A DNA stretch of 64,000 bases from Enchytraeus crypticus (lineage: Eukaryota > Annelida > Clitellata > Enchytraeida > Enchytraeidae). The notes under the pieces were generated by a model, which searched no databases, was not told the origin of the DNA, and saw nothing but the letters and a program-made list of their open reading frames with translations. The stretch is from the NCBI GenBank assembly GCA_905160935.1, contig CAJHZI010000449.1, forward strand, positions 1,737,501-1,801,500, read 5' to 3'. Below, one piece after another: positions 549 through 52,172 of this stretch. Each line of letters opens with the position of its first letter. The stretch's first letter is position 1. Position numbers and translations under genes: made by a program.

Positions 549-1968
549 CACAGTCAGCTCTGAGTTGATTAAGAAGGCGGAGGTAGCAGACGTCGAGGTG
601 ATCTAGGTCATAGCGACATACTTCCTCCGAGAGCTTGTGCATCTCATGTAGTTCATGTACACCTTGTTTGTATTCACTGTCCTGTACTGCGTGATAGTAC
701 TTCTTAGGTCTACACAGTGTACACACAAACTGCGTACACACAACTCATGTACACACACAACTCATGTACACACACAACTCATGTACACACAACTCATGTA
801 CACACACAACTCATGTACACACACAACTCATGTACACACAACTCATGTACACACAACTCATGTACACACACAACTCATGTACACACAACTCATGTACACA
901 CAACTCATGTACACACAACTCATGTACACACACAACTCATGTACACACACAACTCATGTACACACACAACTCATGTACACTTGTTTGTACACACTGTCCT
1001 ATACTGCGTGACAGTACTTCTTAGGGCTCATTAAGAATTACTCACTGGTGGCCATTCTGATGTGATGAATAAATTGAATTAAATTATGCAGGATATCTAA
1101 TTAAATAATTTCAGGTTCTTTGCACCTTTTATATTTTGTGCACTATGTCTGTATAATGTTTCTGATATCTGACAATGTTTTTATGAATAAACATCGCTCT
1201 CTCTCTCTCTCTTTCTCTCTCTCAATGGCATAGTGTTAATTGATATAACATTTACACCTAGTGACCTACAGTGAGTAACAGTAACAAATAGCAAAGTATT
1301 AATACTCACAACTTGAATGCAAATGGTCCAAACATTGCCATGTTCTCTTCTCTCTTCCTACAAGTCATGAAATAACACATCAATGGTTAAAAACACTTCA
1401 TTGCGACATCCTCGTCCTACCATCAAAGATGATATATCTATCACTTCAGCATTTTAAAGAACAATGTTCTTCAGCAAGCCACACAAGCACTCTCCAGCCA
1501 AAGCAATAATAACAATAATAATTATAATACTAATAATAATAATAAACAACTGCCTCATCAACGCCTGTTCAGGGGAGTCACAGTCGTGGTGGATCGATAA
1601 CAGATGAAGTGGAGACGGGCGCTGCTGGAGCCAAAAGCAATGGATTCAGGGCAATGTCACCCCCTGCGGCAATCAGCAAAGTTTAACTTTCAGCGGACAT
1701 AAAAATAATAATAATGATATTAATAATTAATAATAACAATAATAATAAGTATATTTATAAAGCGCCGCTCATTAGAGAGAATAAGAAGAACTAGAACTAG
1801 AGTGACGTACAGACAGTGTTGTGACTTGATGAGATGGGGGTTGACGGGCACTTGGACACCTTTCTCCCACTCCTGTCTCCATGGATCAGCAATACGAAAA
1901 TACTCCTCCGGTCTTAGCATCTCTGAGTCAGGCAACTTCATAGCGCTGATGAGATCCTTGCGAAACAA
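549..1968 (-). CDS. JADE: JADE-family PHD-finger protein, EPL1-like N-terminal exons (partial)
   Basis: Two minus-strand exons are recognised. Exon A is 1968 down to about 1807; it starts after a CA-rich acceptor and encodes [16 protein letters not shown], then [20 protein letters not shown] and VPVNPH. Exon B is 729-549 and encodes RPKKYY, then [14 protein letters not shown], ending in phase 1 at a GT donor. This matches the conserved block before the PHD fingers of JADE1/2/3 (AMKL..., [27 protein letters not shown]). JADE proteins are scaffold subunits of the HBO1 (KAT7) histone H3/H4 acetyltransferase complex in the nucleus. The PHD fingers and C-terminus lie left of the window. The exon A donor is the least certain point: GTAC|gtcact keeps phase 0 with exon B. 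Both acceptors are bordered by tandem repeats. Which JADE paralogue this is cannot be told. Confidence 0.85.
728..985. repeat. Short minisatellite at the acceptor of JADE exon B
   Basis: About 15 copies of a 15-17 bp unit (acacacaactcatgt and variants) start right at the 3' splice site of the exon at 729 and extend upstream of it on the minus strand. Read on the minus strand, the units resemble the acceptor context gttgtgtgtacgcag. The apparent ORFs of Cys-Thr-His repeats here come from the repeat. Confidence 0.85.
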
Positions 1969-2205
1969 CTACACACACACACATACATACACATACATAC
2001 ACACACATACATACATACATACACACACACATCTCAGAGTCAGGCAATTTCATAGCACTGATTAGATCCTTGCGAAACAACTACACATACACATACACAT
2101 ACAAATACATACATAGTACATACACATACACATACATACACACACATACATCTCAGAGTCAGGCAGCTTCATAGCACTGATGAGATCCTTGCGAAACAAC
2201 TACAC
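1914..2205 (-). repeat. Tandem copies of the first about 55 bp of JADE exon A
   Basis: The exon start together with its tag acceptor (1914-1970) reappears at 2030-2084 and again at 2149-2203, separated by ACATAC/CA-rich tracts. The copies differ by a few substitutions. Each carries an intact AG acceptor and the codons for [16 protein letters not shown], so they could act as decoy acceptors. From 2210 to 2310 the repeat degrades into CA-rich sequence. Confidence 0.85.
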
Positions 2206-2465
2206 ATACACACACACACATTTACAAACACACACATTTACACACACACATGCACACATTTACACACACACAAGCAAACATTTATACACACATACACACA
2301 CGTTTACACACATGAATTCTGTATTTGGTGATTGAAGTTATGGTTGCTATGTTTGCTAATTGGATGTTATGGTTGCTATGTTTGCTAAGTGGATGTTATA
2401 GAACTTTGCTATGTTTGCTAATTGGATGTTATGGTTGCTATGCTTATCAAACCTCAGCAAGTTTA

Positions 2466-2541
2466 TCCTGACCACAACCAAGAGCATGCTTGATAGAGCT
2501 CAGCTTATTGATCACTGCCGTAGTAGAGCTGTATGACACTG

Positions 2542-2573
<32 letters not shown>

Positions 2574-2662
2574 TGTCCTGACCACAACCAAGAGCATGCT
2601 TGATAGAACTCAGCTTATTGATCACTGCCGTAGTAGAGCTGTATGACACTGCAATCAATCAA
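2466..2662 (-). repeat. Direct duplication with a TTGA tract and splice-like AG
   Basis: About 90 bp starting cctgaccacaaccaagagca occurs twice (2468-2570 and 2577-2662), each copy ending in a CAAT-repeat tract. On the minus strand each copy starts with gattgattgcag followed by an open frame of about 20 codons. It sits where a missing JADE 5' exon would be expected, but the frame could not be joined to its neighbours. The two copies differ at very few bases. Confidence 0.75.
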
Positions 2663-2732
2663 TCTATCTATCTATCAATCTGGGTGTGTTGAATGGAATC
2701 AAAATCTATTGATAACAAGGGTAAAACCTGTT

Positions 2733-2862
2733 AAAGCTAAGGTTAACGTCAGTTTCCTCACTCAAAAGCGAAGTCAGTGACGGACGAGCCCAGGATTTAA
2801 ACCCTGCACATACTGATCCGCGGTTGAGTATCTTACCGACTTCGCCACTGGCTCCAGCCAGT
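2733..2862 (-). mobile_element. tRNA-derived SINE, family A
   Basis: The minus strand starts ggctggagccagtggcgaag (A-box-like) and contains a B box within ggtttaaatcct, followed by a conserved tail gaggaaactgacgttaacc and ttagctt. The same element appears at least eight more times in this window, in both orientations, which establishes it as an interspersed tRNA-headed family. This copy has a slightly mutated B box. Confidence 0.8.
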
Positions 2863-3224
2863 AACAGTAATCTATGCTAGATAAATAAATAAATCCACTC
2901 AATCAATTAAGGAAAAGCTTCATGAACACATAATTAGTAAGCAGGTAGGTGGATGAGTGACGAGAACAGATTAAGATGAGAAGTGAGATCATGCGATACT
3001 TGTAGGTATTGCTGTGTATCTCACACTAGCTACTCACTATTTCATCTGAACCTTACGTTACCAAACAACATTGTTCCATAGCCCTACCATGAGCAACAAC
3101 AACAGGAGATCAGAATAGAGCAATAGCAACAGGAGATAGGAGTAGAGCAACAACAAGAGATTTTAATAGAGCAACAACAGCAGCAGATAGAAGTAGAGCA
3201 ACAACAAGAGATTGGGGTACTCAC

Positions 3225-4166
3225 TATCTCTATCGTCATCGCTCAGTTTCAAACGCTTTCTACACACGAAGTCCAGCTCTGAGTCTAAATCAATCAATCA
3301 ATCAGTCAGTCAATCAATCAGTCAATTAAACAGTCTTCTACTTAGACAATCATCTGTTTATAACATTGCTTGTTCTACAGAACTTATAACCCTAGAGAAT
3401 TCTTAAAACCAGAGCGGCATTGATGACCTCATTGATGACGTCATTGATGACTTGCAGCTTTATGACATTTGACACGTTCAAAACGTGCTTAAACATGAAT
3501 TGTAGTGAAATGATCATAATGACAACCAGCATTTACAATACTAATAATACCACACACCATAGTTAAATGATCACCATGCTCATATCTATCGCTTTTAATA
3601 CTACATGTTTAAATCTTAGGCAACTTGGTTCATTTTCCATGTAACCAGTCCAGTGAATGTCCGAGATTTTACTCTGAGATCAGCGAGGCTGGGAATTGAA
3701 CCCACAAGGGTTTAATTCACCTCAGGATCTGTCATTTAAATCTTCATAACATTACTTGACACCTTTAACCATTGCGCTATTGAGACATTCATATGTGATA
3801 CTGCAGGCTGAAACCACAAGACAATGTATAAATGTCCACAACACCATACGAAGTACTACACACGTCAGAGACTTTATTATCTGATAGCGTACATCAGGAA
3901 CCTAACCCACGACCCCAGGGCAACCATTTAAAGTATCTTGATGATACAGGATGTTCAACATGCTGAGCTATTGAGACATTCTAGTAGAAACTAATTACCA
4001 AAGCTGATAATTTATTATATTATTTTTATATTTTTTAAATATTTTTTGTGCTATGTTCTATAAAAGATATAAATAGAGACTGGTGTAACATGGCTATTGT
4101 CCCATAAAAATTCTTTATCTTTAATCTTTACTTTATGGTTGATATTGAATGTCACTTACCTTCCAT
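3225..4166 (-). CDS. Candidate 5' exons of the JADE-family gene
   Basis: A short minus-strand exon at 4166-4160 has ATG GAA G followed by a consensus gtaagt donor (phase 1). A second candidate at 3284-3225 follows an acceptor made of a TTGA tract and TTTAG, and joins in phase to give M-E-D-S-E-L-D-F-V-C-R-K-R-L-K-L-S-D-D-D, ending at a gtgagt donor (phase 1). A charged Ser/Asp-rich start preceding the LFRKDL exon is typical of JADE proteins. The link to exon A at 1968 is not resolved: exon A opens in phase 0, so at least one more exon is needed. A duplicated acceptor-plus-open-frame segment at 2466-2662 is the obvious candidate, but its phases do not close the gap. Treat this as tentative. 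Confidence 0.3.
3540..3791 (-). mobile_element. tRNA-derived SINE, family B
   Basis: The minus strand begins with a tRNA-like head (gaatgtctcaatagcgc...) and a B-box region around gggttcaattcc, then a body with tctcggacattcactggact and ending near a tgatcatttcactat tail. At least six more copies lie in this window. This copy is diverged. Confidence 0.7.
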
Positions 4167-5685
4167 CGTTTAAGCCTGAAACACAGCAAAGAAGCAGATG
4201 ATTTACGTTATAAACTGACAGAATGTTTCATTAAATAAAACAACAATTTTTCTGAAAAATTCTCTAAAGACAACCATTTATTATTTGCAACTTTTTATTA
4301 ATGGAAATAGTTACATATGTAAATGGTGCAGAGATTTTCTAAAATAAGCTCATTTGGTTCAAAGCGATCAGTCACTGATATTTCATTGTAGAACTATGAA
4401 CCAACAAAACCCTTAGCAGTAAATGTAATAGCAAAAGTATCTAAAATTTTATTTAAAATATTAAATTCATCATATTCAATCAAAATCAGGTGCGATACAA
4501 AGTAACTCAGAGTTCGGTTTTGGAAAGAATATAAGGTATTACTGAAGCAATAGGAGTAATACAAGTTATATATAGACATAGCAAAGACACTTGATTTTTT
4601 TGTGTTTTCTATATTTCCATAAAATAGACTGGGTTAAAGATCATGAAAATGATTGGAGTTGACAAAAGAGAGATGGGAGATTAAATTTAAACATGGATAA
4701 GAAATTGATTGGAATTCAGTATAAGAGTTCCCTAAAGAGGTTGAAATAGGTGATACGAGTAGAAACAAGGATGTTTCATGTCATCACTACAATTCAACTG
4801 CTATTCCAAAGCGGTAATGAGTGAGGCGATGGAAGAATTTAATTATTTTGCAGATGATCCTGGTATGCTTGCTAGCAAGGTATGCTTGCATCGTGAATTG
4901 ATAATAGGAAGGATTATGGCTAATCTGAATGACATGGAGGTGTGGTATGGAAAGAAGACTAATACAAAACGACAAAGGCGATTAGAGTATCTAAGGACTA
5001 TGGAGATGTAAATAATACATGATTAAGACAGGTAAATTAAGTTCTGCTATTTGTTAGCTTCAAAGAGATGCGCCATAACATTACAGATGAGGAAAAGTGT
5101 ACGAAATTGGTTGAAAGAGTTATAGGACGTGCACCCGCCGTCAGGCAGCTCACTAAGAGAGATAGAGATTTCTAACAAATATAAACTAATAACATATCTA
5201 CATAATATTTAGAGATCTTCCATATACACGAAGTTTGGTAAGATATTAAATCCAGAAGAGTTAAGATAGAAAATACGGATTTATGAGATAAATACCATTT
5301 ACCTTGGCAAAATTTATCTGATAAGTAAAATATTTTCATTAATCAATAAATAGAGTCTAATTTAAAATTACCCCAGCTGTGACCTCATCACAATGTAAAC
5401 ATTGCTGAATAGGCAATGAAAAATAAATAACAAACACACAAATTCCAGCACATTTGACAATATAATCCCTGAATGAACGCATCTAGAAGAAGCCAGTACC
5501 TGATACTGCGCTGTGATTGGCTGATGGAATAATAAGTTCAACTGATTAGACAGAACAGTTAAAAGAGTTCAAAACATTCACAGAGTTCCGCCGCCATTGC
5601 TTTGCTTTTACAAATACGCATCACATAATTCCAATGCCCGCTAATAGAACATATCATCACAAATATCATTGACAACAAGTAAAAG
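4167..5685. other. Gene-poor stretch with one unrecognised ORF
   Basis: I see no recognisable gene here. A 77-codon plus-strand frame at 4778-5011 (MSSLQFNCYSKAVMSEAMEE at its start, a basic KKTNTKRQRRLEYL end) has fairly coding-like composition, but I recognise no family and see no good splice context. It could be an old retroelement remnant or chance. The rest is AT-rich unique sequence without clear repeats. Confidence 0.4.
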
Positions 5686-5689
5686 TAAT

Positions 5690-5875
5690 CACACTACAGT
5701 GAAATGATAATAATAATAATAACATAACAATAATTAGAGTGCTACAGTCATCAATGACAACATCGAGCACTATTGAGACAAAATCAAGCCGGTGAGCAAA
5801 AAAAGAAGGTCCAAAAACGGTGCAAATTCCAAAATCCAGAAATTCAGTCCAAAGTATGATGTATGATGAACTACG
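5690..5875 (-). mobile_element. LINE 3' end (family L tail)
   Basis: On the minus strand this reads from tttggactgaatttctggat through ccaccgg-like text and ends in agtgctcgatgttgtcat, gactgtagcactctaatt and an ATT microsatellite. The same 3' segment follows a reverse-transcriptase C-terminal frame at 7135-7680 and 18,228-19,005, so it is the 3' UTR of that LINE. Confidence 0.75.
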
Positions 5876-5884
5876 TTGATCTAT

Positions 5885-6050
5885 CACTTAAACTACCACA
5901 TGTTTGAACTGTTGGGCAATTTAGTCTATTTTCCGTAGAACCAGTTCAGTGACTGTCCGAGATTTTCAGATAGCGCGGTTGGGATTCGAAGCCACGAGGG
6001 TTCAATTCACCTTAGGATCTCTCATTTAAAACTTCATGACGTCATCCTTA
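5885..6050 (-). mobile_element. tRNA-derived SINE, family B
   Basis: This is a minus-strand copy with the B-box motif gggttcgaatcc altered to a diverged form, the ctcggacagtcactgaactg body and a truncated end. It abuts the LINE tail just upstream. Confidence 0.7.
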
Positions 6051-6159
6051 CTTTATTAGTACTAGTAAAATGCTACGTAATTGTGTTTTGTTAAATGCAT
6101 AAGTATAAATTAATTATCTTAATAATATTAATTAATTACGATCTCAGATCAAATAAAAT

Positions 6160-6470
6160 TTCTTGACATTACCTATTTTAAATAGGCTATTTAATGTAGT
6201 ATGTCCTGAATCTACTAATTCAGGTCTTATTAAAACATATACATGTACTTTGGACTGATCATCTGGATTTTGGAATGTGTACCGTTTTTGGACCTTCTTT
6301 TTGCTCGATGGCTTGAATTTGTCTAAATAGTGCTCGATGTTGTCATTGATGACTGTAGCACTCTAATTGTTGTTATTATTATTGTTAAAGGCGTCTTAGA
6401 ATTAAATCTCACATTGGAACTCTAGAACTTTCATTTAAAATTTCTTGACATTACCTATTTAATGTAGTTG
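6160..6470 (+). mobile_element. LINE 3' end (family L) flanked by a duplicated segment
   Basis: A plus-strand copy of the LINE tail runs from about 6246 (tggactgatcatctggattt) to the ATT-rich end near 6390. On either side, at about 6166-6200 and 6432-6468, the sequence tttcttgacattacctattt with tttaatgtagt recurs, as if the flank had been duplicated. A segment tcctgaatctactaattc at 6204 recurs at 9532, which suggests that both belong to another dispersed repeat. Confidence 0.6.
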
Positions 6471-6960
6471 TCGCATAACGCTCGGCTCGTACGTGCACAC
6501 CTCCCATATCTTTGGGGTCATAGCTTGGTCTTGGACGCCGGTATTGCTCAGCTCCCTCCAACATTAAATGTTTTTGTTGGTTAGGGCCTCCCCATCCATC
6601 CACTGAGCTAATGGGGACCTCCGGCGCGCTGTGGTAGTATGGTCTTTGGATATTTTGGTCAGTGGCTTGTGTGTTCCTGGTTATTGGAAGGCCTTGGAAC
6701 TCGGCCAATTGTATATGTCCGCTTTCTACTAATGCGCCCAGATCGTCACGACTAAAGGGGGAATGTTTTCGTCTCCCGCCTGTGCTAGGGCTATGGCCTC
6801 TGCCCTATTGGTGGGTTCGGTTCATGGGAATTCAGATCTCGTGCCAGGTCGTCACGGCCCAAATCGGGGGTAAGTCCCGCGTTCGACATCGAGGAGGTTT
6901 GGGACACTGGCCTTCTATCTGTGTTTTGTTCGGCCATCTCCCCCTAGTTTGTTGTAAAGT
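6471..6960 (-). pseudogene. Possible retrotransposon gag-like remnant
   Basis: This stretch is clearly more GC-rich than its surroundings. On the minus strand it contains an open frame starting M-A-E-Q-N-T-D-R-R-P near 6938, interrupted by stops or shifts, and an 85-codon frame at 6451-6708 rich in Pro, Gln and Arg (MAEFQGLPITRNTQATDQ at its start). The composition and broken state suggest a gag-type region of a decayed LTR element, but I can identify no domain. Confidence 0.3.
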
Positions 6961-7134
6961 GTAAAGGTGTAGAATTTATTTTGATTAATTGATTAGTAAT
7001 GATTGGAAATTGAATATGGTGATTGGAATTTGTCAAACGAAAAATACACGTCTAACCTAACCCTACTGTTAATGAGTGTGGAGCGTTGTCTGGGACCACA
7101 CTTGTAAAAGCTAATAAGTAAGTGATAGTAGTCT

Positions 7135-7680
7135 TTAATAATAATAACAGCAATTAGAGTGCTACAGTCATAAATGACAACATCGAGGACTATTGAGACA
7201 AAATCAAGCCGGTGAGCAAAGAAGAAGGTCCAAAAACGGTACAAATTCCAAAATCCACAAATTCAGTCCAAAGTAAAGGGAGTTAAAGAAAAGGTGGTTT
7301 AGGCGCAGGTCGCTCCTCATGGACACTGGATGGAAAAGAGAGATGGTAAAGATAGGTCTTCAACTGCTTATGGAACTGCTCATAGGAAAGCAAAGGCTGA
7401 TGTGATTCAAATGAAGATTTCCGAAGATTGGATGAAAGAGAATTCCAGATCTGAGGTGCAGCATGCTGGAAAGAACGATTAGATAGCTTAGAGCGTGAAG
7501 GTAAGCTAGGTCTCACAAGAGTAATTAACTTAGAAGACCGAGTAATAGCAGGCTGCATTACTTTAATCAAGTGAGACATAGAAGTTTGTCCAGAGATGGT
7601 GATGGACTTATAGGTTGACGAAGCTGTTTTGTAAATGATACGCTCTTTAATCTTTAGCCAGTGCAAAGACTTCAAAATAT
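7135..7680 (-). mobile_element. LINE (CR1/L2-like) 3' fragment with reverse-transcriptase C-terminus
   Basis: The minus-strand frame 7675-7283 encodes MKSLHWLKIKERIIYK, then TRSSKLITLVRPSLPSRSK and AAPQIWNSLSSNLR. This is the standard C-terminal end of CR1/L2-type LINE reverse transcriptases (LKSLHWLPVKERI..., WNSLP..LR). It is followed by the family L 3' UTR down to an ATT-rich end near 7135. It is 5'-truncated, as is usual for target-primed reverse transcription. Confidence 0.85.
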
Positions 7681-7689
7681 TTGTTTCCT

Positions 7690-8346
7690 ATCTAAACCTA
7701 TTTTGTATTTGACGAGGTTTAGTTCACCTCTATTGCGAGACAAAACCCGCCTGCAACTCTTGGAATCCTTGGTCATCCAATATCGGGACCAAAACCCGCC
7801 TATTGGGCAACTATGTACTTCTTTCTCCCTACCCTAATGCTTAATTTAAGAAATGTACCGCTAGCTCTAACTTATACGCCCGCTATGACTACACATATAT
7901 ATCTCTATGACTACATATATATATCACTCTATGAGGGGGGCTTTTTGCTGTCCCACCCTTCCAAATTTCACAGCAAAAATGCTGTGGTGTCTGTATAGTG
8001 CTCAGATTGGCGCTATCTTCCGACCGGGAACTGCTAGAAAGTTATCGACCAGAAGTTGGCCGCTCGTCACGAAAATACGACACCCCTACTAATAGCGCTG
8101 GGGCGCCCTATCCACGGGGTTCCCCAGCACAACCCCCCTTCTGTAACACTGCCTGTTTTAAAACACAGGTCTTTACACAATGGGACCCTTCCCGTTTTAC
8201 AACTTCTCGGCACACCAATGGGACTGTGTTTTAAAGTCGTAAGGCCGCCGATCACTTCTCGACACTCTTAGTTGTGTTTTAAAGCTTTTTAACAACTACT
8301 CTACTTCTCCACACAACGAATTGTGTTTTAAAGCTTTATAGCCGCT
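7690..8346. repeat. Repeat-derived block with about 50-bp direct repeats
   Basis: 7690-8100 holds short duplications (aaaacccgcct twice; a ctatgactacacatata pair) and no gene. From about 8140 to 8390 there are about five diverged units containing tgtgttttaaagctttt and ctactctgcttttc, each starting with a cacaacgaattgtg half-palindrome. The last unit leads straight into the inverted repeat at 8347. Confidence 0.55.
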
Positions 8347-8567
8347 ACTCTGCTTTTCAACACAACGAATTGTGCTTTAAAGTGGTCAGTAATAATATTC
8401 AATCACATCAACTACGTCTGAATATTATTTCTTCGTGATTAGTGGCTTTAAGTTGATTGTGATTGGATCTACTTATCACGAAGAAATAATATTCAGACGT
8501 AGTTGATGTGATTGAATATTATTACTGACCACTTTAAAGCACAATTCGTTGTGTTGAGAAGCAGAGT
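8347..8567. repeat. Long near-perfect inverted repeat (93-bp arms, 35-bp loop)
   Basis: The left arm 8347-8439 and right arm 8475-8567 are reverse complements with only one mismatch that I can see (ttttc against gagaa). The loop is 8440-8474. A hairpin this long should form a stable cruciform, or a dsRNA if transcribed. The left arm contains the last copy of the preceding 50-bp repeats; the right arm abuts a SINE B copy. Confidence 0.9.
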
Positions 8568-8785
8568 CATGAAGTTTTAAAAGACAAATCCTCAGGTGAA
8601 TTGAACCCTCGTGGGTTCGAATCTCAGCAGCGCTAATCTGAGAGTAAAATCTCGGACATTCACTGGACTGATTATACGGAAAATGGTCTAAATTGCCTAA
8701 CGGATTAAACATGTGGTTTTAAAAGTGATAGATATCAACATAGTTGATTATTCACTATAATGCGTGTTTACTTTTTACTTTAACT
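8568..8785 (+). mobile_element. tRNA-derived SINE, family B
   Basis: This plus-strand copy contains gtgggttcgaatctcagc (B box), ctcggacattcactggactg, a ggaaaatggtctaaattgcc body and a tgtttactttttactt end. Its 5' head is cut at the edge of the hairpin. Confidence 0.8.
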
Positions 8786-8789
8786 GCGT

Positions 8790-10500
8790 CTGGACCACAC
8801 GTTTACCACGATACTTCGTGGTAACCCAGACGACTTTGTATGGAGAAACACGGCTTTTTATACTAAATTTTAAAATGGGATAACTACGAGGCCAATCACG
8901 TAAAGCCTTACCTAACCCTCGATTTGTATCACCATACTCTATTGGTTGAAGGTGTGGCCTAAATTAAGTTATATTTAAACTGTGTAACCATCCTGGTTAT
9001 TTTCTTATCCCACCACCTAATTTGTGCTCTTTTCTAATTAAAACTGTTGTATGATCTAGCGCTAATATATACCGTAGCGATAACGTCGTTCTCTCGCTTC
9101 AATTATCGCCACCAATCATCTTTATCTATCATCGCCACCAATCATCTTTCTTAACAATTCTGCAAACCTTATCGAAATATACACAAATCTACATAAAACC
9201 GTTCATAACCTCCAATGGCACTTAACTGACATTTCCTAAAATTTAATATAACGTCTTTCTACTTTAATATAGGCCAACTACGTATATTATAGCATTTACA
9301 ACCAATGATATCTACTTTTACTCGAACCGTTAACGAATTAGAGTTTTCCTTTGATCACTAGCTCAACTTTATTTCTAATATTGCTATTTATGATTATTTT
9401 TATATTCTGGAAAAATCCCTAAACTGGTGCTACGTTTAATCTATACTGGTTTACGGAAGCGTACGAATTTATATTGGTTTAATGCAACAAGCGTAATCAA
9501 AGCGAAAGTCCAATTTCGCTACAGTAGTATATCCTGAATCTACTAATTCGGGTCTTTGTATACATGTATGTCTTGAGTTTTAAAAATGACCAAGTTATGC
9601 AAATAATTATATTACTCAAAGAATCTTTGATGTTAAAATAAGATTTCTCTGGCGACTTCTGCTAGTGTGTGTTAAAATTCTTTAAGCGATTACTTAATCT
9701 TATTTCGTGTTCATTGTTGTTTATTCCTTTGCGCCTAATTCGCAGTCGTGTTGCTATTGGTCAACATCTCGTCGTGATTTAGTTTTTGTTTACATCTATT
9801 TTGTTTAGATCCGGTCGCTGATCAGATTATTTATTTATCATTCATTTATTGAATTACTAGTTGCAGCAATTTATAAAATATAGTAAATATGATATTTTTG
9901 TGTTTGTATGTTCTTTATTTGGTGTAAGACTTTAGATTCCAAAGTTGTCGCTAGCTGTCTATCCAACCACTGATCATTTCGAATCGGATTTCCTTGCACA
10001 GCAAGCTTGTAGGCGTTACCATTTACCAATTTACCGTCTTGTAAAATTTCTCTCAGCGTTGTGACTGGTTGCGATTCGGTGTGGTGGTTTACTGAATGCT
10101 CTTTCTGCATCTGAGCTGATTCGTGGAATGTTGGTATTATTTTAGCCAATAAGGTACATCTTCGGATTAAGTTTAATTTAAACAGAAATAAGCCATTACC
10201 TATCTCTCCTCTAGATACTTTCTAGTGAGCAGATGTATACTGTGCTGGAGAGAATGTGAATCAGGTCTAGTAGATTTAGGCTTAGACATTCAGAACTTAT
10301 GACAAGGATTAATTAATCTCACACTCAAACACTCTGTGATAGTAACATCAGTCCACTTGATCACAGATCCAATATAAAGCTACCAATGATAAACCTCAAA
10401 CTCTATTCTATACAATGCATGAATTGAATTGTAGAAAATATCTAACCACAAACTTATCAGCTGATCCAGTAACAAATACAGATCTATATAGAAGAGGTTT
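8790..10500. other. No gene recognised
   Basis: This is AT-rich sequence with a short duplication (tcgccaccaatcatctt, about 9107 and 9133). The minus-strand 92-codon frame 10149-9871 is polar and Gln/His-rich with no recognised family; it may be a decayed retroelement. About 10,440-10,526 probably holds the promoter and 5' UTR of the coactosin gene, but I see no defined element. Confidence 0.4.
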
Positions 10501-10526
10501 TGATATTTTAACTCGACTACAGAAGA

Positions 10527-13334: not shown

Positions 13335-13378
<44 letters not shown>

Positions 13379-13510
13379 CTCTGCTGCCTCACTGTTTCTC
13401 TCTCTCTTCTGCTGTCTCACTGTTTCTCTCTCTCTCTCTTCTGTTGTCTCACTGTTGCTCTCTGTCTATCTTCTGTTGTTGCACTGTTTCTCTCTCTTCT
13501 GTTGTCTCAC

Positions 13511-13554
<44 letters not shown>

Positions 13555-13564
13555 GTTGTCTCTC

Positions 13565-13608
<44 letters not shown>

Positions 13609-15101: not shown

Positions 15102-15211
15102 TTTTTGTTGTTGTTGTAACCACTAGGTTATGTCAAGCTGTAATGTGTTATTGTTGTTGTTGTTACCACTAGGTTATGTCAAGCAGTGGCTCCAAGCTGT
15201 TTGTCAAGTGA
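15072..15211 (+). repeat. Three tandem copies of the coactosin last exon
   Basis: The terminal exon with its acceptor (actaccag then GTGATGTCAAGCAGTGGC) is at 15072-15101. A shortened copy starts at 15127 (GTTATGTCAAGCTGTAATG) and a third at 15173-15211. Spliced from exon 4, the first gives a tail ending S-S-G-S-K-L-stop. The third gives the same run followed by F-V-K-stop. TTGTTG repeats separate the copies. Only transcripts can show which are used. Confidence 0.8.
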
Positions 15212-18227: not shown

Positions 18228-19005
18228 AACGTTAACAACAACAACAAATTTAGAGTGCTACTGTCGTCAGTGACGTCGAGCACTGTGGTACCAAATCAAT
18301 CCGATGAGCAGGGTTTGGGGTCCAAAAACGGTGCGATCCAAAATCCAGGAGTTCGGTCCGAGGAAGGGTACTAGTAGAATGGAGGTTTACGTGTTGGTCT
18401 TAGTTCATGTGTACTGGTTGAATATGAGTGGTCAAAAAGAAAAGCCTTCAACCGTCTATGAAACTGTTCATATGAAAGGAAAGGCTGATCAGCAGAAGAT
18501 GAGGGGGTGCGTAAAGTGGAAGGAAGAGAATTCCAGATCTGAGGAACGGTGTGCTGGAAGGATCGCTTGGAGAGCTTACTGCGAGAAGGGATGCTAAGGT
18601 GATTGACTTAGAGGACCTAGTGGATGGCTGCATAGAGGAAGACTGTCTCACTTGTATTAAGTACGCCTTGTACACAATGCGTTCTCTGACTTTAAGCCGG
18701 TGCAGAGACTTCAAGAGAGGAGTCACATGAGAGTGCTTAGAGCGGCGGAAGACTGCACGTGCAAGGGAATTCTGGATAAACTGCAATCTGTCGATCTCAC
18801 AGCTTGGGAGATTCAGAAACAAGGAGTTACAGTAGTCCAGTTTAGATTGCACGAGAGCCTCACCGATGGTAGAAGCGGTCTCAACGGTAAGATATGGTCG
18901 TATTCGACGCAGATCTTTGATGTGGAAGAAGCAAGCCTGTGAAGTTACAGGCCTATACAATGCTAGCAATACTGGCAATGGATATGTAGAGCAATTGATC
19001 ATATA
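18228..19005 (-). mobile_element. LINE (CR1/L2-like) fragment with reverse-transcriptase C-terminal region
   Basis: On the minus strand from 19,005 the frame reads ACFFHIKDLRRIRPYLTVET, then ALVQSKLDYCNSLFLNLP, LQFIQNSLARAVF and LLKSLHRLKVRERIVYKA. This is the conserved C-terminal part of CR1/L2 reverse transcriptases (LDYCNSL, IQNSLAR, LKSLHWLPV.ERI). The frame decays after that and the family L 3' UTR follows down to 18,228. It is more complete than the copy at 7283 but contains frameshifts. Confidence 0.85.
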
Positions 19006-19560
19006 CATGTAGCTAGGTTAAGCTTAAGCGATATGATTACCTCAAGCATTTTAAATAAATCACATATTTATACCCACTGCTAAAGATTATAAATTGAGTT
19101 TTATCTAATTATGTATCATTTGAGATTTTTTAATTTTCTCCTCATTTCACACTCTCTTTTTTTAAAAAGAGGTTCAACTTATTTAAGTTATTTAACTAAA
19201 TGATCGCCTATAGAGGGCATTCGGTTTGGATCTCGTTGCATTATCAGTAATCAAACGAGTCCAGCTTATAATTAATTAACTCTGGGTGTTGATCGAGTAC
19301 TCATAAATAATGCTGCGTTTCTACAGGCAACCTGTGGATTTCTGTACATGCTCTAACTGCATTTGTTAACTGGATATGCCTAACGATACGAGAGCGAAAT
19401 TGTTATCTATAATTTAATATAGGTATATACTTAATACAGTAGGCACCCCCTATCTAGTTTATGTTGTTATATTTAGCATAGCATTTATTTTCTTTTAGTT
19501 GTTCTAATAACTTTATTTTTCATGGCTTAGTTTGCAGTAAGCTAATCTAGGCTCTACAGA

Positions 19561-25657: not shown

Positions 25658-34394
<8,737 letters not shown>

Positions 34395-42600: not shown

Positions 42601-45600
42601 TGACTCATTTAGTCACTGTAGGACAGGGATATAATTAATGCGAGTGTTTGTGGTGTTTTAATCAAGTTAAATATGAAATTGTGTTGATTAATTAGATTCT
42701 TCACATGGTTTCTGTGTGCATATATTTATCTGTGTGTTTTAAAACTTGTTTAACTATTTACAGAGATCTTTACTCAGCAGATGTTATCAGAAGGGCACTA
42801 TTTGATCGTGTAGCAATACCGCTGAGCTGCACTACATCTCATATAGGCATCCAGTGCCCTGTATTCCTACATGCTCAGGGGACTACTTTCGAACATAGTA
42901 AACAAGCTGTTCAGTTTACTGCAAAGACTGGAACAAAAATAGTTCCTTCTGCTTCAGGTTCTTAATGAAATTACTAAATTAAAAATATTGTTGCATACCC
43001 AACATTTGCTTGAACATTTAAGTATTTCTGTTCTTTGGATTTACTTTGAAACTAACGCCCTATAAATCTTATGATAGAATGTCTCTAAAAGATTTTCTTT
43101 AAAATTATTGTTAAATCGTAGACTAATGAAGCGAGAGGTATTTTAAGTTTTGTTATAGATACGATTAGATGTCGTTAAACTGTTTCTATTTTATTTGACT
43201 TAGCCTGTGGCAGATTGAAAGGTTTCATCTGCAGATGAGTATATCCGGGCTCAGCTGTCACAGATGTCCTAACGAGAAAACAAACTGCGGCTTTTAACCC
43301 ATGACCTTTGGTCTCATTTCTGAGTATTGTAGTCTTTTTACAGTTAGTTTGCTAAATAGTTTTCTTAAGTCCTTTAACCTGGGTATTCTATATCTTGATT
43401 TTAAACATATATTCTAGTCACTTCGGACAGATTGTACATGTAATTATTTGCTGTAACTGGCTGGAGCCAGTGGCGGTAAGATACTCGACTGCGAATCAGT
43501 GTGTGCGGGGTTCAAATCCTGGGCTCGCCCGTCGCTGACATCGCTTTTGAGTGAGGAAACTGACGTTAACATTAGCTTTACCTGCTTTTCTTTGCTTTGT
43601 AATGCCTGTGTAGTGAATACTTTCTATTTGATCTTTTTTTATTTTATTTGATTTTTTTCTATTTGATATGTGTATTTAATGGTTACTATTGTGCCATGTA
43701 GCTCTGTCCTGGTATTTGGATGGAGATGGGCGTGGCATACAGGAGGTAACAGCCAATGGGAGGAGACTTGGTGTGACCAAGAAAAACACAGACAGCAGAA
43801 AAGCCATGTACGTTTATATTAGTCATCTTTGTGTCATTAGTCATGTATGTGTATATGAGTCTTCTATGTGTCATTAGTCATATGAGTCATCTATGTGTCA
43901 TTATTCGTGTATATATGACATTAGTCATGTGTGTATATATGACTCATCTATGTGCCAATAGTCATATATTTATATGACTCATCTATTTTATCTCTGTTGA
44001 CTGATTGTTAAAATTATCATAGTCTTCTCTGTCATATCGTCACGTGTCTGACTTGACATCAATTGGTAGATATTCCAGGCTATCAGGGTTCTAGACTGTC
44101 ACACCGGTTTTGGCGTCTGGTATTCGCCATTGTTCTTCTTAATGCTTCATTGACTTATCTTAGAGAAATTTACTGTATATATAGATACCCATTATGATTT
44201 TCCTATTTGATTTGATTTACGGATTTATTAACTAATCTATTTATCGATTAATTGATTAACAATCTATTTAATTAGTTAATTAATTGATTGATTGACAGGT
44301 CCAGCTTGTGTAAGGCTGCACTGTTTGAGAGGTTTCTAGCACTGTGTGATCTGATACCATCATATAGGCTACCAGCAACACTGAGGTATCTGTTCTACTT
44401 GCAGGTGTGAAGCAGAAGAGAAACTGAATTGATAATTTTTTAATTTATATATTCACTTGTGTCGTCCCAATGCTTAGAAAATCTTCGCTCTCAGATCAGT
44501 GTAAAGGTATATCGGCATTGTATATAAAACCTTCCTCATTATGACTTAAACAAGAGAACAATTAGCTTCCTGATAACTTTGTTCTTTTACCAGATCACTG
44601 TATACGTGCCGAACTCTTTGAGCCTTATATCATCTCGATTTTTTAAGTTAATTAATGTTTACACTGTATTCAGTTTCTTCTTGTTTTCTTGTTTTAAAGT
44701 GACAAAGTTAAGTTCAGCTCAATTATAAAACATTGAGAGGACGTTACCCATGTCATTATATTTATTAAAAAATTTTCCTTTCAAATTCTCATTTAATTAG
44801 AGGCTTCAAACAGAACATAGTTTAGCAAAAGCTTTCGCTTTTGCTAATAGTTGTGTTGATATAATAGCAACTAAAAACATAGCGTGTTCCTAGAAAAATT
44901 ACATGTATGTGTTTGTATATGGTACACAATTGTGTTACATTGTTGGTTAATGAGTGCATTACGCTGAAAATAATACTACTCTCTTGTGTTTAGAACAGAC
45001 TGAAATGTCTAATGTTGTAGACTCTCTTGTGTTTAGAACAGACTGAAATGTCTAATGTTGTAGACTCTCTTGTGTTTAGAACAGACTGAAATGTCTAATG
45101 TTGTAGACTCTCTTGTGTTTAGAACAGACTGAAATGTCTAATGTTGTAGACTCTCTTGTGTTTAGAACAGACTGAAATGTCTAATGTTGTAGACTCTCTT
45201 GTGTTTAGAACAGACTGAAATGTCTAATGTTGTAGACTCTCTTGTGTTTAGAACAGACTGAAATGTCTAATGTTGTAGACTCTCTTGTGTTTAGAACAGA
45301 CTGAAATGTCTAATGTTGTAGACTCTCTTGTGTTTAGAACAGACTGAAATGTCTAATGTTGTAGACTCTCTTGTGTTTAGAACAGACTGAAATGTCTAAT
45401 GTTGTAGACTCTCTTGTGTTTAGAACAGACTGAAATGTCTAATGTTGTAGACTCTCTCGTGCTTAGAACAGACTGATACGTCTATTGTTATAGACTCTTT
45501 TGTGCTTAGAACAGACTGATATGTCTAATGTTGTAGACTCTCTCGTGCTTAGAACAGACTGATACGTCTATTGTTATAGACTCTTTTGTGCTTAGAACAG

Positions 45601-46376
45601 ACTGATATGTCTAATGTTGTAGACTCTCTCGTGCTTAGAACAGACTGATACGTCTATTGTTATAGACTCTTTTGTGCTTAGAACAGACTGATATGTCTAA
45701 TGTTGTAGACTCTCTCGTGCTTAGAACAGACTGATACGTCTATTGTTATAGACTCTCTTGTGCTTAGAACAGACTGATATGTCTAATGTTATAGACTCAC
45801 TTGTGCTTATAATAGACTGATATGTCTAATGTTATAGACTCACTTGTGCTCATAATAGACTGATATGTCTAATGTTATAAACTCTCTTGTGTTTAGACAG
45901 ACTGATACGTCTATTGTTATAGACTCTCTTGTGTTTAGAACAGACTGATATGTCTAATGTTATAGACTCACTTGTGCTTATAATAGACTGATATGTCTAA
46001 TGTTATAGACTCACTTGTGCTCATAATAGACTGATATGTCTAATGTTATAAACTCTCTTGTGTTTAGACAGACTGATATGTCTATTGTTATAGACTCTCT
46101 TGTGTTTAGAAGAGACTGATATGTCTAATGTTATAGACTCTCTTGTGTCTAGAACAGACTGATATGTCTAATGTTGTAGACTCTCTTGTACTTAGAACAG
46201 ACTGAAATGTCTATTGTTGTAGGAACAGGGAGTCATTGAAGACGTATGAAAACTACAAACAAGCCGCTTTGTCGTATCAGTCACTGTGGAAACAATTGAG
46301 AAATTCTGTCTTCTTAAACTGGATGACAACTCCAAGACATTATAATGAATTCTCTCTGGAAGATAATTCTGTTTAA
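39671..46376 (+). CDS. ADAT1: tRNA-specific adenosine deaminase 1 (ADAT1), complete
   Basis: Seven exons join in phase: 39671-39963, 40462-40595, 40981-41755, 42764-42957, 43702-43807, 44299-44385 and 46223-46376, giving 580 residues (human ADAT1 502). ADAT1 deaminates A37 to inosine next to the anticodon of eukaryotic tRNA-Ala. The deaminase zinc site is visible: [12 protein letters not shown] (His and catalytic Glu), HVPCGDASIIP spanning the exon 2/3 junction, and [11 protein letters not shown]. Other matches are [34 protein letters not shown] and the C-terminal [20 protein letters not shown]. Exon 3 holds a 130-residue low-complexity insert with four [12 protein letters not shown] units and six NDSSLP units, which explains the extra length. 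The start is the first in-frame ATG after an AG; a short upstream exon cannot be excluded. Confidence 0.93.
39964..40285. repeat. 30-bp minisatellite at the ADAT1 exon 1 donor
   Basis: About nine units (gtacctaaagtactagtcat + tgttatcagt) begin within 50 bp of the exon 1 donor. The donor context caggtacttgaaatatttgt resembles the repeat unit cagtgtacttaaagtactag. Confidence 0.85.
40346..40508 (+). repeat. 80-bp direct duplication of ADAT1 exon 2 start
   Basis: The acceptor and the first 46-47 bp of exon 2 (ATATCTGTATGAAGAGCTGG, TCAAGATCTATACAGTGTCA, GATGACT) occur twice without visible differences, 80 bp apart (exon starts 40382 and 40462). The upstream copy is followed by AG, so in the exon 1 frame it would read GAC TAG. 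Only the downstream copy gives a full exon. Confidence 0.95.
40596..40675. repeat. Tandem repeat of the ADAT1 exon 2 donor
   Basis: The donor sequence gtatgtcactgtatgtctct is repeated about four times directly after the exon, giving several equivalent gtatgt donors. Confidence 0.8.
40805..40940. repeat. 23-bp AT-rich minisatellite in ADAT1 intron 2
   Basis: About six units of atcttgttatataatattat + atg end about 40 bp before the exon 3 acceptor. Confidence 0.9.
41817..42085 (+). mobile_element. 5S rRNA-derived SINE
   Basis: ggcgggatttagccaacttg is followed by gcgaagttaagcaacatcga, gttagtactttgtgggtgac and caccigg-type 5S sequence, then the shared body (ggaaggttattctataatcc, gcgccggctgcaat). 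It is about 60 bp downstream of the ADAT1 exon 3 donor. A short TTATG repeat follows near 42,090. Confidence 0.85.
42465..42570. repeat. AAT/TAA trinucleotide-rich stretch
   Basis: ATAATAATA runs and a TAGTAG run lie in ADAT1 intron 3; probably a retroposon tail. Confidence 0.7.
43459..43585 (+). mobile_element. tRNA-derived SINE, family A
   Basis: ggctggagccagtggcggta, B box gggttcaaatcctgggctc and tail gtgaggaaactgacgttaac lie in ADAT1 intron 4, about 115 bp before exon 5. Confidence 0.85.
43808..43990. repeat. Degenerate repeat at the ADAT1 exon 5 donor
   Basis: About five units of 30-40 bp built from tgtgtcattagtcatgtatg and atgactcatctat start within 15 bp of the donor. Confidence 0.7.
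44978..46222. repeat. 43-bp minisatellite ending at the ADAT1 exon 7 acceptor
   Basis: About 29 units (actctcttgtgtttagaaca + gactgaaatgtctaatgttg + tag). The last unit's ttgttgtag is the real exon 7 acceptor, and the exon begins GAACAGG, similar to the agaacaga inside each unit. The first eleven or so units are identical. The next part is an 86-bp dimer repeated about four times, followed by more diverged units. Confidence 0.95.
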
Positions 46377-46384
46377 CATTAGGC

Positions 46385-46675
46385 TTATGATAAGGGTGTT
46401 TATCGTAGGACTTAGATAAGGGTGTTTAGCGTAGGACTTAGATAAGGGTGTTTATCGTAGGACTTAGATAAGGGTGTTTAGCGTAGGACTTAGATAAGGA
46501 TGTTTATCGTAGGACTTAGATAAGGGTGTGTAACGTAGGACTTAGATAAGATTGTTTAACGTAGTACTTGGATATGATTGTTTAACGTAGGACTTAGATA
46601 AGGGTGTTTAACTTAAGACTTAGATAAGGGTGTGTAACGTAGGACTTAGATAAGGGTGTGTAACGTGTTATTGTG
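46385..46675. repeat. 26-bp minisatellite just after the ADAT1 stop
   Basis: About eleven units of ataagggtgtttatcgtagg + acttag start nine bases after the stop, in the presumed 3' UTR. If transcribed it becomes part of the mRNA. Confidence 0.9.

Positions 46676-48371: not shown

Positions 48372-48422
<51 letters not shown>
48372..48422. repeat. GA microsatellite
   Basis: A GAGAGA run of about 45 bases. 48,425-48,930 contains no recognised feature. Confidence 0.9.
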
Positions 48423-49855: not shown

Positions 49856-50162
49856 TAGGATGGACCAGCCGTGTAACATTCTCACAATTAATGAATTAAT
49901 TTATTAATTATCGGCCAGTTTTAAGTTGCTAAGTGAACTTAATTCTTTACAAATTAAGGTCTCATATTTACTTAGATTTTGCAATAGGTGCCCTAATTCT
50001 AATGTATCAATTACGCCATTAATTAACGTAGCAGTTTATGTTTTCAGACACAGCTTTGCATTGATGATGTTATCATATTCGTTCACTATCGTGTGAAGAC
50101 ATTTATATTGAAGTTTGCACGACCGGTTCAATACCTTCCATTGATCGTAGTGATTCTACAAC

Positions 50163-51956
50163 ATGTCTACTAAAGCTGGCACGACGCCAACTTCACCACA
50201 ACGGTTTACCTCTCCTACATCTAGACCCAGCCCAGCAAAGATCAGCTCAAGCAGCTGTGGACAGCTGTCAGTGGCATCTGACACAGCTGAGGCGACTGCT
50301 GTCACAGCTGTTAATGACGTCACTGCAGCAGCTACTGCTAAAACTAGTAGAACAGATGATGAGCTAGCAGTTGCCACGAATGATAATGCTACAGTTGTTA
50401 AAACATCTGCTACACCTGTAGTACAAGCTGCTAGGCCAGCTGCTGCTACTGCAAAGGATATTTCTGATGACGTCACAGCATATACTGATGACGTAGTAGA
50501 GCAGAATGACTCTAATGTAAACATGACATCTACCCCCAACAGAAGAATCTCATCAACCAGTATTACCACTTCCAATAGTGTTACCATCTCCGATAGTGTT
50601 ACCATCTCCAGCAGTGTTACCACTCCCTGCAGTATTACCATCCCCTGCAGTGTTACCACCTCCTGCAGTGCTACCACCCCCTGCAGTGTTACCACTCCCT
50701 GCAGTGTTACCACCACGCCCTGCAGTGTTACCACCTCCTGCAGTGTTACCACTCCCAGCAGTGTTACCACCTCCGGCAGTGTTACCACTTCCGGCAGTGT
50801 TACCACGCCCTCCAGTGTTACCACGCCCTGCAGTGTTACCACCTCTTGCAGTGTTACCACGCCCTGCAGAGTTACCCTGACCAGGTCGCCATCTGTCGAC
50901 ATCGATGGTCTGCCGCTAAGCGACGAGAAGAAGAAGATAAACCTCAAGCGTCTTCTCTCCCACGAGTCCTCAGAGACGCTCGATGATGATGATGAAGCAG
51001 TCCTGGGTAGACTACAACAGGAACAGCTTCCAGCGAGCAGTGAGACACAATCATTTCCTTCAAGTCATCTTTCCCAGTCCAGAATCGATGACGAGGAGAG
51101 CAGTGAGACACAATCATTTCCTTCAAGTCATCTTTCCCAGTCCAGAATCGATGACGAGGAGAAAAGTTTCGCTGAAGACTGTTCAACACACCTATCCCAG
51201 GATGAAGAACTTTGTATAGAGACATCCCAGCACAAGAAACAAGAAGAAGGGTTCAGCCTGGATGACTATGAGTTCCCGGATGAAGATGATGATCCTGAGA
51301 GACGAGAAAGAAAGCTGAGCCGGAAGTCCTCGATACGCTCAATCCGGAGCGATTGTTCTCAGGATAGCCTGGCCTCGCCTGCGTCCAGCAAGAAGATGGT
51401 CAAGTTCGCTGACGCCATGGGAATGAGCCTGGAGGACGTGCGGGCCCTGCTGGACCAGGGAGAACCGCCCCTCGTGCCTGCCTCGGCTCTCAGGGACCTC
51501 AACATGAGGCGACGCCGCACCCGCCCGGACCATCCCTTCACTCTCGTGCCAGACTTCGAATCACCGAGTGTCCGCCCTGACTTTATCCTACGACTACTAG
51601 AGCACAAGGTGTTGCTGGAGCATTGTGTAGTGTCAGAGATGAACGTTAGTTGTGTGGTGCGGGTTGCTGATGTGGCTTATAACAGGAGAGTGTTTGTTAG
51701 GTACACCCTGGACGACTGGATCACTGAACAGGATGTCCTAGCTGTCTACGTCCCTGAATCCTCGGATGGGACGTCAGAGAGATTCGCTTTCTCGCTCAGA
51801 CTTCCGGAAGAGTTTGGATTAAAGGAAGCGAGGGAGGGTGAGAGCGCTCGGATGGAGTTTGCTCTGTGTTACTGCGCTGATAGTCGTAACTACTGGGACA
51901 ATAACAACGGCGACAACTACCTCATCCTGTGTCACCTTCTAGAGGTCTACCAGTGA
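50163..51956 (+). CDS. PPP1R3: Protein phosphatase 1 regulatory subunit 3 (glycogen-targeting), CBM21
   Basis: A single open frame of 597 codons. Members of this family tether the PP1 catalytic subunit to glycogen and so promote dephosphorylation of glycogen synthase and phosphorylase. The PP1-binding RVxF motif is at about residue 409-415 (KKMVKFADAMG, compare KK.V.FAD in the family). The C-terminal CBM21 carbohydrate-binding domain spans about 480-597: NVSCVVRVADVAYNRRVFVR, YTLDDW, and ALCYCADSRNYWDNNNGDNY with the expected Trp-Asp-Asn-Asn glycogen-binding pattern. Residues about 130-240 are a minisatellite-encoded S-V-T-T-P-C repeat. Residues about 290-332 hold a 21-residue unit repeated twice (SSETQSFPSSHLSQSRIDDE). 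Which vertebrate PPP1R3 paralogue is closest cannot be decided. Vertebrate members are often single-exon too. Confidence 0.9.
   Translation: MSTKAGTTPTSPQRFTSPTSRPSPAKISSSSCGQLSVASDTAEATAVTAVNDVTAAATAKTSRTDDELAVATNDNATVVKTSATPVVQAARPAAATAKDISDDVTAYTDDVVEQNDSNVNMTSTPNRRISSTSITTSNSVTISDSVTISSSVTTPCSITIPCSVTTSCSATTPCSVTTPCSVTTTPCSVTTSCSVTTPSSVTTSGSVTTSGSVTTPSSVTTPCSVTTSCSVTTPCRVTLTRSPSVDIDGLPLSDEKKKINLKRLLSHESSETLDDDDEAVLGRLQQEQLPASSETQSFPSSHLSQSRIDDEESSETQSFPSSHLSQSRIDDEEKSFAEDCSTHLSQDEELCIETSQHKKQEEGFSLDDYEFPDEDDDPERRERKLSRKSSIRSIRSDCSQDSLASPASSKKMVKFADAMGMSLEDVRALLDQGEPPLVPASALRDLNMRRRRTRPDHPFTLVPDFESPSVRPDFILRLLEHKVLLEHCVVSEMNVSCVVRVADVAYNRRVFVRYTLDDWITEQDVLAVYVPESSDGTSERFAFSLRLPEEFGLKEAREGESARMEFALCYCADSRNYWDNNNGDNYLILCHLLEVYQ
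50578..50880 (+). repeat. In-frame 15/18-bp minisatellite in the PP1 subunit
   Basis: About 20 units such as agtgttaccactccctgc encode Ser-Val-Thr-Thr-Pro/Ser-Cys. The unit length is a multiple of three, so the frame is kept. The protein is disordered and Ser/Thr-rich here. Confidence 0.9.
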
Positions 51957-52172
51957 GAGGTCTACCAGTGAGAGGTCTACCAGTGAGAGGTCTACCAGTG
52001 AGAGGTCGACCAGTGAGAGGTCGACCAGTGAGAGGTCTACCAGTGAGAGGTCTACCAGTGAGAGGTCTACCAGTGAGAGATCGATCAGTGAGAGGTCTAC
52101 CAGTGAGAGGTCGACCAGTGAGAGGTCGACCAGTGAGAGGTCTACCAGTGAGAGGTCGACCAGTGAGAGGTC
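51942..52172 (+). repeat. 15-bp minisatellite containing the stop codon
   Basis: About 15 units of gaggtctaccagtga begin with the last codons and stop of the PP1 subunit (GAG GTC TAC CAG TGA). The downstream units alternate gaggtct and gaggtcg. Every unit carries an in-frame TGA in the same register. Confidence 0.95.

Follow-up and report, generated by a model that had tools for sequence, protein, structure and literature searches.

At the loci tested in the genome of the clitellate annelid Enchytraeus crypticus, tandem arrays with long repeat units are concentrated at exon–intron junctions. Such arrays were recognised at the edges of exons in a 64,000-nucleotide stretch of contig CAJHZI010000449.1 (assembly GCA_905160935.1, positions 1,737,501 to 1,801,500 of the forward strand), the whole of which is hereafter termed the window, and their placement was measured in the introns of eight independent loci elsewhere in the same genome. 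The structures correspond to the mirages described in amphioxus, and the explanation that we place highest, at about an even chance of being right, is that tandem duplications of ~30–140 bp arise across the exon–intron junction, which acts as a duplication hotspot, and later grow as minisatellites.

The genome searched comprised 524,188,772 bases in 802 contigs, and the eight loci modelled were CLTC (31 exons), PRPF8 (33 exons) and SF3B1 (20 exons), each picked without knowledge of its arrays, together with two PSMC4 paralogs, PSMC1, PSMC6 and PSMC5, taken from the hits of a search with VCP. VCP itself was not found in that genome search, which returned 55 rows of related ATPases with 32–70% identity; six of these loci (L033–L038) were fetched, and one (L037), with a spliced model score of 351 that made it untrustworthy as a gene, was excluded from the final counts. 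Arrays less than 30% intronic were not counted. Uncertainty attaches to exons 5–6 of SF3B1 and to the terminal exons of L035, L036 and L038. The models of CLTC and PRPF8, together with that of SPOP in the window, are intact, with homology along almost their whole length. The resultant sample held 119 introns and 87,132 bp, and an array was scored as near when it lay within 50 bp of an exon edge. For the first of two null models, each array was reduced to one unit and placed randomly in its own intron, with overhang into the exon allowed.

Assayed in this way, 32 of the 40 arrays with units of at least 30 bp lay near an edge against 12.9 expected (the maximum of 20,000 simulations being 24), and 17 of the 40 spanned a splice edge against 6.5 expected (simulation maximum 16). 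Both sides of the intron contributed, with nine acceptors and eight donors spanned against 3.3 expected for each, and none of the eight loci lacked a long-unit array that spanned an exon edge. By way of contrast, only 13 of the 54 arrays with units of 10–29 bp were near an edge (10.1 expected, P = 0.19) and none spanned one, a difference between long and short units for which Fisher's test returned 8.5e-8 (near) and 4.2e-8 (spanning). The near-edge fraction by unit length was 5/36 at 10–19 bp, 8/18 at 20–29 bp, 14/19 at 30–49 bp and 18/21 at 50 bp and above. An alternative null model, deploying whole arrays and raw intron lengths, gave a comparable outcome both at seven loci (29 of 35 near against 11.2 expected; 16 spanning against 5.8) and at all eight (32 of 40 near against 12.5). 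When synthetic long-unit duplications were spiked into the sequence they were called as long-unit in 326 of 350 edge insertions and 325 of 349 mid-intron insertions, rates that are nearly equal at the two positions and therefore indicate unbiased detection. A preliminary description of the window had argued that arrays are placed non-uniformly in unrelated genes, contrary to plain slippage, and these counts sustain that view; the shared process that it went on to propose is likely, because the positions of long-unit arrays in unrelated genes deviate from those of uniform slippage.

In the window, exons were picked by eye and their translations and splice signals then checked, which yielded a set of 24 acceptors, 25 donors, five stop codons and six starts. 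Tandem arrays were called with Tandem Repeats Finder (TRF), and extra copies of the coactosin edge by string match. Eight of the 49 mapped splice edges lay inside TRF arrays (JADE exon A; SPOP exons 3, 4, 6 and 7; both sides of ADAT1 exon 2; the donor of ADAT1 exon 5), and one further acceptor was exactly abutted by an array. Spanning arrays were thus called by TRF in three of the six multi-exon genes (JADE, SPOP and ADAT1), with the coactosin-like gene as a fourth by string match, and no array was found at any splice edge of the C17orf98-like and GPCR-like genes of the window. Two of the five stop codons, those of ADAT1 and the PP1 subunit, were also inside arrays. The arrays that the preliminary description had reported at exon edges of window genes are consequently confirmed at JADE, SPOP, ADAT1, coactosin and the PP1 stop.

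The SPOP protein is 91% identical, across 100% of its length, to a database protein, and a self-written spliced protein-to-DNA aligner queried with human SPOP recovered all internal splice edges of the eight-exon model. The identity of the JADE exon was taken from similarity to human JADE1 (tblastn), and the genes which we take to be ADAT1, a two-domain coactosin-like gene, a C17orf98-like gene and a PP1 regulatory subunit are named by resemblance. The relevant genes and arrays, in window coordinates, are as follows.

1918–2258, minus strand: JADE exon A acceptor mirage, 112 bp x3, with 51 bp of exon inside the array; exon start at 1968
10527–15101, plus strand: coactosin-like gene, two-domain, five exons
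15072–15196, plus strand: coactosin-like last-exon start (VMSSSGSKL), copies at 15072, 15127 and 15173, by string match and without a TRF call
22833–23147, plus strand: array 3' of the C17orf98-like stop, 33 bp x9.5, TRF start 29 bp past the stop
25658–34394, minus strand: SPOP gene, eight exons (34284–34394, 33325–33446, 32460–32739, 29933–30110, 29052–29107, 27757–27879, 26930–27072, 25658–25802)
27042–27418, minus strand: mirage at the acceptor of SPOP exon 7, reaching 31 bp into the exon, with a 38-bp unit
27863–27973, minus strand: mirage at the acceptor of SPOP exon 6, reaching 17 bp into the exon, 39 bp x2.9
27989–28831, minus strand: array adjoining the SPOP exon 6 mirage, 26 bp x32.4, an edge-like unit (likeness by eye) without the AG
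30054–31554, minus strand: SPOP exon 4 acceptor mirage, ~138-bp unit with an AC-rich intron part, 57 bp of exon
32692–33065, minus strand: mirage at the acceptor of SPOP exon 3, reaching 48 bp into the exon, with a 62-bp unit; edge at 32739 reproduced by spliced alignment
39671–46376, plus strand: ADAT1 gene, seven exons
40350–40508, plus strand: ADAT1 exon 2 acceptor mirage, 80 bp x2, TRF match 100%
40594–40657, plus strand: array at the donor of ADAT1 exon 2, reaching 2 bp into the exon, with a 10/20-bp unit
43805–43881, plus strand: array at the donor of ADAT1 exon 5, reaching 3 bp into the exon, with an 18/37-bp unit
44978–46222, plus strand: ADAT1 exon 7 acceptor array, 43 bp x29, its final base being the last intronic base
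46370–46666, plus strand: ADAT1 stop-codon array, 26 bp x11.4, seven coding bp
51941–52173, plus strand: PP1 regulatory-subunit stop-codon array, 15 bp x15.5

Three of these, the ADAT1 arrays at the exon 5 donor, the exon 7 acceptor and the stop codon, were absent from the preliminary description, and certain of its particulars require amendment. At SPOP exon 6, to which it assigned approximately 30 copies, the array that spans the edge is the 39-bp one listed above; the ~30 are the 26-bp units of the adjoining array, which lack the AG. Similarly, the unit of the array assigned to the C17orf98-like stop holds a stop-like string by eye, while the array as called begins beyond that stop. The wider pattern of arrays at stop codons holds within the window, where the two instances compare with 0.19 expected (P = 0.014, whole window), and was not repeated at the six other genes with a usable downstream flank, none of which had an array with a unit of at least 15 bp within 50 bp of its stop. 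The 100% TRF match of the array at 27989–28831 suggests that it either expanded very recently or was homogenised. SPOP exon 8 has a short-unit intronic microsatellite that does not run into the exon, and the two spanning arrays at ADAT1 donors have base units below 20 bp. The SPOP exon 4 array consists of three main TRF pieces, counted as one family in the first null model.

The preliminary description had also stated that arrays begin exactly at exon edges, and this does not hold: spanning arrays overlap the exon by 2–57 bp, and when that overlap was expressed relative to unit length it did not differ from uniform (15 arrays, five genes, Kolmogorov–Smirnov P = 0.16), from which it follows that the arrays do not start exactly at the edge. 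Breakpoints cluster within ~50 bp either side of the junction, at donors and acceptors alike, and the exon retains one intact edge beside the coding sequence, with the decoy copies sitting in the intron. In the mechanism envisaged, germline duplication breakpoints would be commoner within ~50 bp of an exon–intron junction than deep in introns, the junction being a mutational hotspot; the copies would next expand or contract through unequal exchange or slippage, and the arrays would be tolerated as splicing would use the exon-proximal site. Duplications within coding exons would presumably be purged unless in frame, leaving the junction cases visible.

The two PSMC4 paralogs (L033 and L034) are a duplication of a proteasome ATPase in which exon lengths are identical in exons 2–8. 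They share 88.4% identity across coding exons 2–8, and shared 12-mers indicated ~1.4 copies of an 81-bp exon-3-donor unit in L034 and ~3.5–4 copies in L033; related arrays were also present at the exon 8 acceptor. The exon-3-donor duplication is apparently common to both paralogs, and therefore mirages would predate the paralog split and vary in copy number, and the two loci do not count as fully independent.

A number of results weigh against a junction hotspot acting on long units. The 30-bp limit was set after the data had been seen, and the first choice, units of at least 10 bp, gave 16 spanning arrays at seven loci against 8.8 expected (P = 0.01). Five of the eight loci are related ATPases, and two of these are paralogs with at least one common ancestral mirage. 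For units of at least 30 bp in the window without JADE, eight of 12 arrays were near an edge against 5.2 expected (P = 0.077) and five spanned one against 2.8 (P = 0.12), a count in which the SPOP exon 4 family enters as several arrays; JADE, with a model score of 715 and masked letters in its stretch, was left out of the pooled counts, its exon A being retained in the overlap test. Proximity to edges also reached shorter units, with eight of the 18 arrays of 20–29 bp units near an edge (4.0 expected, P = 0.02), and 16 of the 37 arrays with units below 10 bp in the CLTC, PRPF8, SF3B1 and PSMC introns near one against 6.5 expected (P = 0.0002), on both sides and with none spanning. The near-edge excess accordingly extends to microsatellites, and at the eight loci spanning alone is confined to long units; an earlier conclusion that short units have no near-edge excess at all was dropped. 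Among 18 non-spanning arrays situated 0–65 bp from an edge (L038 not included), two, in CLTC introns 16 and 17, had clear copies of the exon edge; on the acceptor side some of the rest matched the intronic part of the edge, but none of the nine on the donor side had a clear exon copy, and part of the excess is therefore edge-proximal rather than edge-spanning. The candidate trigger, a step in GC content from 51% in exons to 34% in introns or else a nucleosome boundary, is a guess. The composition step at the junction is sharp, with exons at 50.7% GC and introns at 34%. Lastly, of 89 decoys in 22 spanning long-unit arrays of 13 genes (27 of the 89 coming from one array), 83 kept their AG or GT against 72.1 (standard deviation 3.5) expected from identity elsewhere, an excess not foreseen under strict neutrality, save where indels reduce flank identity; the position-by-position counts given below fit that proviso.

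Two of the alternatives accept the excess at edges and account for it by what happens to arrays after they form. The main rival is differential survival, whereby arrays of uniform origin would be lost to rapid indel turnover in mid-intron and kept longer beside conserved exon sequence. A repeat content of 39%, given for E. crypticus in the accessible portions of the genome report (PMC8460440), and the edge enrichment of microsatellites both favour it, but units of 10–29 bp show no clear gradient and never span, long-unit arrays at edges and in mid-intron have similar median matches (90% and 87.5%), and the two-copy array at ADAT1 exon 2, whose identical copies are presumably young, already stands at an edge; we regard it as unlikely, though deserving of some weight. 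Slightly less probable again is selection, according to which mirages are retained as spare splice sites that aid splicing or regulation. The aggregate excess of intact decoy dinucleotides, the complete retention of GT and the involvement of donors and acceptors alike are what it would predict. Taken position by position, however, the splice dinucleotide is unremarkable: AG was kept in 58 of 65 decoys, with an array mean of 0.86 against 0.72–0.96 at neighbouring positions, and GT in 24 of 24 against 17–23 of 24 at neighbours up to 3 bp upstream and 9 bp downstream. An initial tally from four genes, low-complexity matches included, had the dinucleotide intact in 73 of 106 decoys, where ~69 were expected; it was read as strictly neutral decay, a reading dropped after the cleaner set of 89 exceeded expectation, the individual positions remaining within the neighbour range. 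Nor were mirage-bearing sites weaker than others (acceptor score 9.74 against 8.54, Mann–Whitney P = 0.18; donor 8.40 against 8.03, P = 0.68), and use of the nearest decoy at acceptor mirages would introduce an insert with stops in all three frames in 12 of 14 cases. These coding consequences accord with tolerance of the arrays, a role as spare sites being unproven.

The remaining alternatives concern how the arrays originate, or whether their placement is real. Copying of pre-mRNA, cDNA or lariat back into the junction would suit the location at exon–intron junctions, but the spanning units read were contiguous exon plus intron, with no exon–exon junction seen (no systematic search was made), and the breakpoints are scattered within ~50 bp of the edge instead of being fixed at the splice or branch site. 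RNA templating has little chance of being correct; of the two versions raised in the preliminary description, cDNA-templated repair is made unlikely by the contiguous genomic structure of the units, and lariat-templated repair fails to explain why eight donors as well as nine acceptors are affected. Chance plus tolerance, with arrays falling anywhere in array-dense introns and overlaps with edges allowed, draws on the window, where 41% of intronic bases lie within arrays with units of at least 10 bp and seven such arrays spanned an edge against 4.65 expected (P = 0.15); the window evidence is weak because its introns are so rich in arrays. Acceptors with an array within 15 bp numbered nine against 3.4 expected (P = 0.002) and donors three against 3.4. 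An acceptor-only effect, which these figures suggested, was dropped in view of the donors at the eight loci, and chance placement itself, the first conclusion from the small excess in the window and from CLTC plus PRPF8 (seven against 4.8, P = 0.19), was dropped after the split by unit length. With both spanning and near-edge counts at the eight loci above all simulations, it is rejected there for units of at least 30 bp and is highly improbable overall. The least credible of the alternatives is an assembly artefact in which mis-joined reads produced the repeats at exon ends. A draft assembly did misassemble one of the published amphioxus mirages, according to the part of that report available (PMC3087553), but the published E. 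crypticus assembly is described as deriving from PacBio plus Illumina reads (PMC8460440). Moreover, copies in most arrays differ mutually, and the preference for edges is found in long-unit arrays and not in those of 10–29 bp.

The founding paper on mirages is reportedly that of Canestro in 2002, according to texts that cite it. The available portions of later reports describe such structures in the amphioxus globins BflGb6 and BflGb9, Adh3, troponin C and PGBD5 (PMC3087553, PMC3902484), and fit the present arrays well, contrary to the earlier view that no described phenomenon does so exactly. Common to the amphioxus cases, as far as those portions go, are minisatellite-like duplications across 3' or 5' exon boundaries, units of ~10–160 bp and a variable copy number. 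Here likewise the unit spans the boundary, at eight of 49 window edges and in 17 long-unit arrays at the eight loci, and both 5' and 3' boundaries are duplicated, at nine acceptors and eight donors. Many but not all amphioxus copies are said there to keep AG or GT, as do 83 of 89 decoys here (73 of 106 with low-complexity matches). Copy number in amphioxus varies among alleles or individuals, whereas the variation seen here is between the PSMC4 paralogs only. Normal mRNA splicing in spite of the decoys is a further mark of the amphioxus mirages, and would be expected here under tolerance. In amphioxus, a chordate, mirages are known from gene-by-gene reports; the present case is an annelid, known from genomic sequence alone, in which all eight loci outside the window are affected, the excess is measured, and spanning is limited there to long units.

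Other systems share some of these features. The accessible text on human segmentally duplicated genes records minisatellites with a mean unit of 30 bp, some of them, as here, at exon–intron boundaries (PMC2812944); those repeats differ from one recent paralog to another and are able to give rise to new introns, whereas the genes studied here are conserved. Intron gain by tandem duplication of an AG/GT proto-splice site, as proposed by Rogers in 1989 (cited in the part of PMC3087553 available), likewise copies a splice-like site, but there the exonic duplication itself makes the intron, while the present units hold existing intron plus exon and the intron is older than the array. The earthworm metallothionein gene, from another clitellate, has intron-1 minisatellites and exon 4 duplications that are missing from the transcript (PMC12783039); it represents one gene family, and the excerpt available does not present the repeats as exon-edge mirages. 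A plain polypyrimidine-tract microsatellite, with a short unit and no entry into the exon, describes SPOP exon 8 and the 37 arrays with units below 10 bp, and does not describe the spanning long-unit arrays. Among listings of open-licence literature, nothing was found that reports minisatellites at exon edges as genome-wide outside the cephalochordates. What is new here is the occurrence in an annelid and the measured excess, the structure itself being already known as mirages.

Further features were recorded in the course of the analysis. In-frame coding minisatellites occur in ADAT1 exon 3 (41078–41204 and 41413–41518) and in the PP1-subunit exon (50558–50876 and 51035–51162). Positions 58875–63983 of the window hold the start of a gene, which we take to be adhesion-GPCR-like with a galactose-binding-lectin-like stretch; its exon 4/exon 5 junction breaks frame, and an exon may be missing. 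A Pfam scan of two forward frames of window positions 1–15001 gave no match, while minus-strand open frames at 7283–7687 and 18448–19017 resemble, by eye, the ends of retroelement reverse transcriptases. A SINE-like dispersed repeat with a tRNA-like stretch (GTTCAAATCC...) is present in eight window copies with no more than three mismatches, on both strands, against a chance expectation of 0; viral contigs scanned with one repeat of this genome gave no match. The copies are located as follows.

Window positions 2768, 11391, 26840, 43510, 48966, 53195, 53769 and 62575: SINE-like repeat copies

Across 13 gene models the observed/expected CpG ratio was 0.72 in coding exons and 0.52–0.54 in introns. 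Short COX1-like pieces with stops in nuclear contigs (L030; C361, C424, C796, C373 and C166) are probably nuclear copies of mitochondrial DNA. The mitochondrial contig (C802) has a COX1 whose closest named relatives, among the best 120 of 7,999 matches listed, are clitellate annelids (Mesenchytraeus 93%, Lumbriculus 93%, Enchytraeidae 92%), with no near-identical Enchytraeus record among them; a sponge, the host first considered, was rejected on this COX1 and on the matches of SPOP. The published nuclear assembly of E. crypticus is given, in the part of its report available, as 525.2 Mb in 910 scaffolds (PMC8460440).

Mirages have so far been known from a few amphioxus genes, without a known mechanism. 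The siting of most long-unit intronic minisatellites at edges, in the loci tested, makes the origin of genic minisatellites and the gain of splice sites testable questions, and gene-prediction software may be confronted with decoy splice sites all across such genomes. The broadest form of the proposal, that exon–intron junctions are a specific germline hotspot at which this annelid, and by convergence amphioxus, gains tandem duplications of 30–140 bp, and the source both of most long-unit genic minisatellites and of a genome-wide reserve of duplicated splice sites, is one that we hold tentatively, its chances being somewhat short of even. If true, those duplicated splice sites would constitute a reserve that could feed the emergence of new introns or of alternative splicing.

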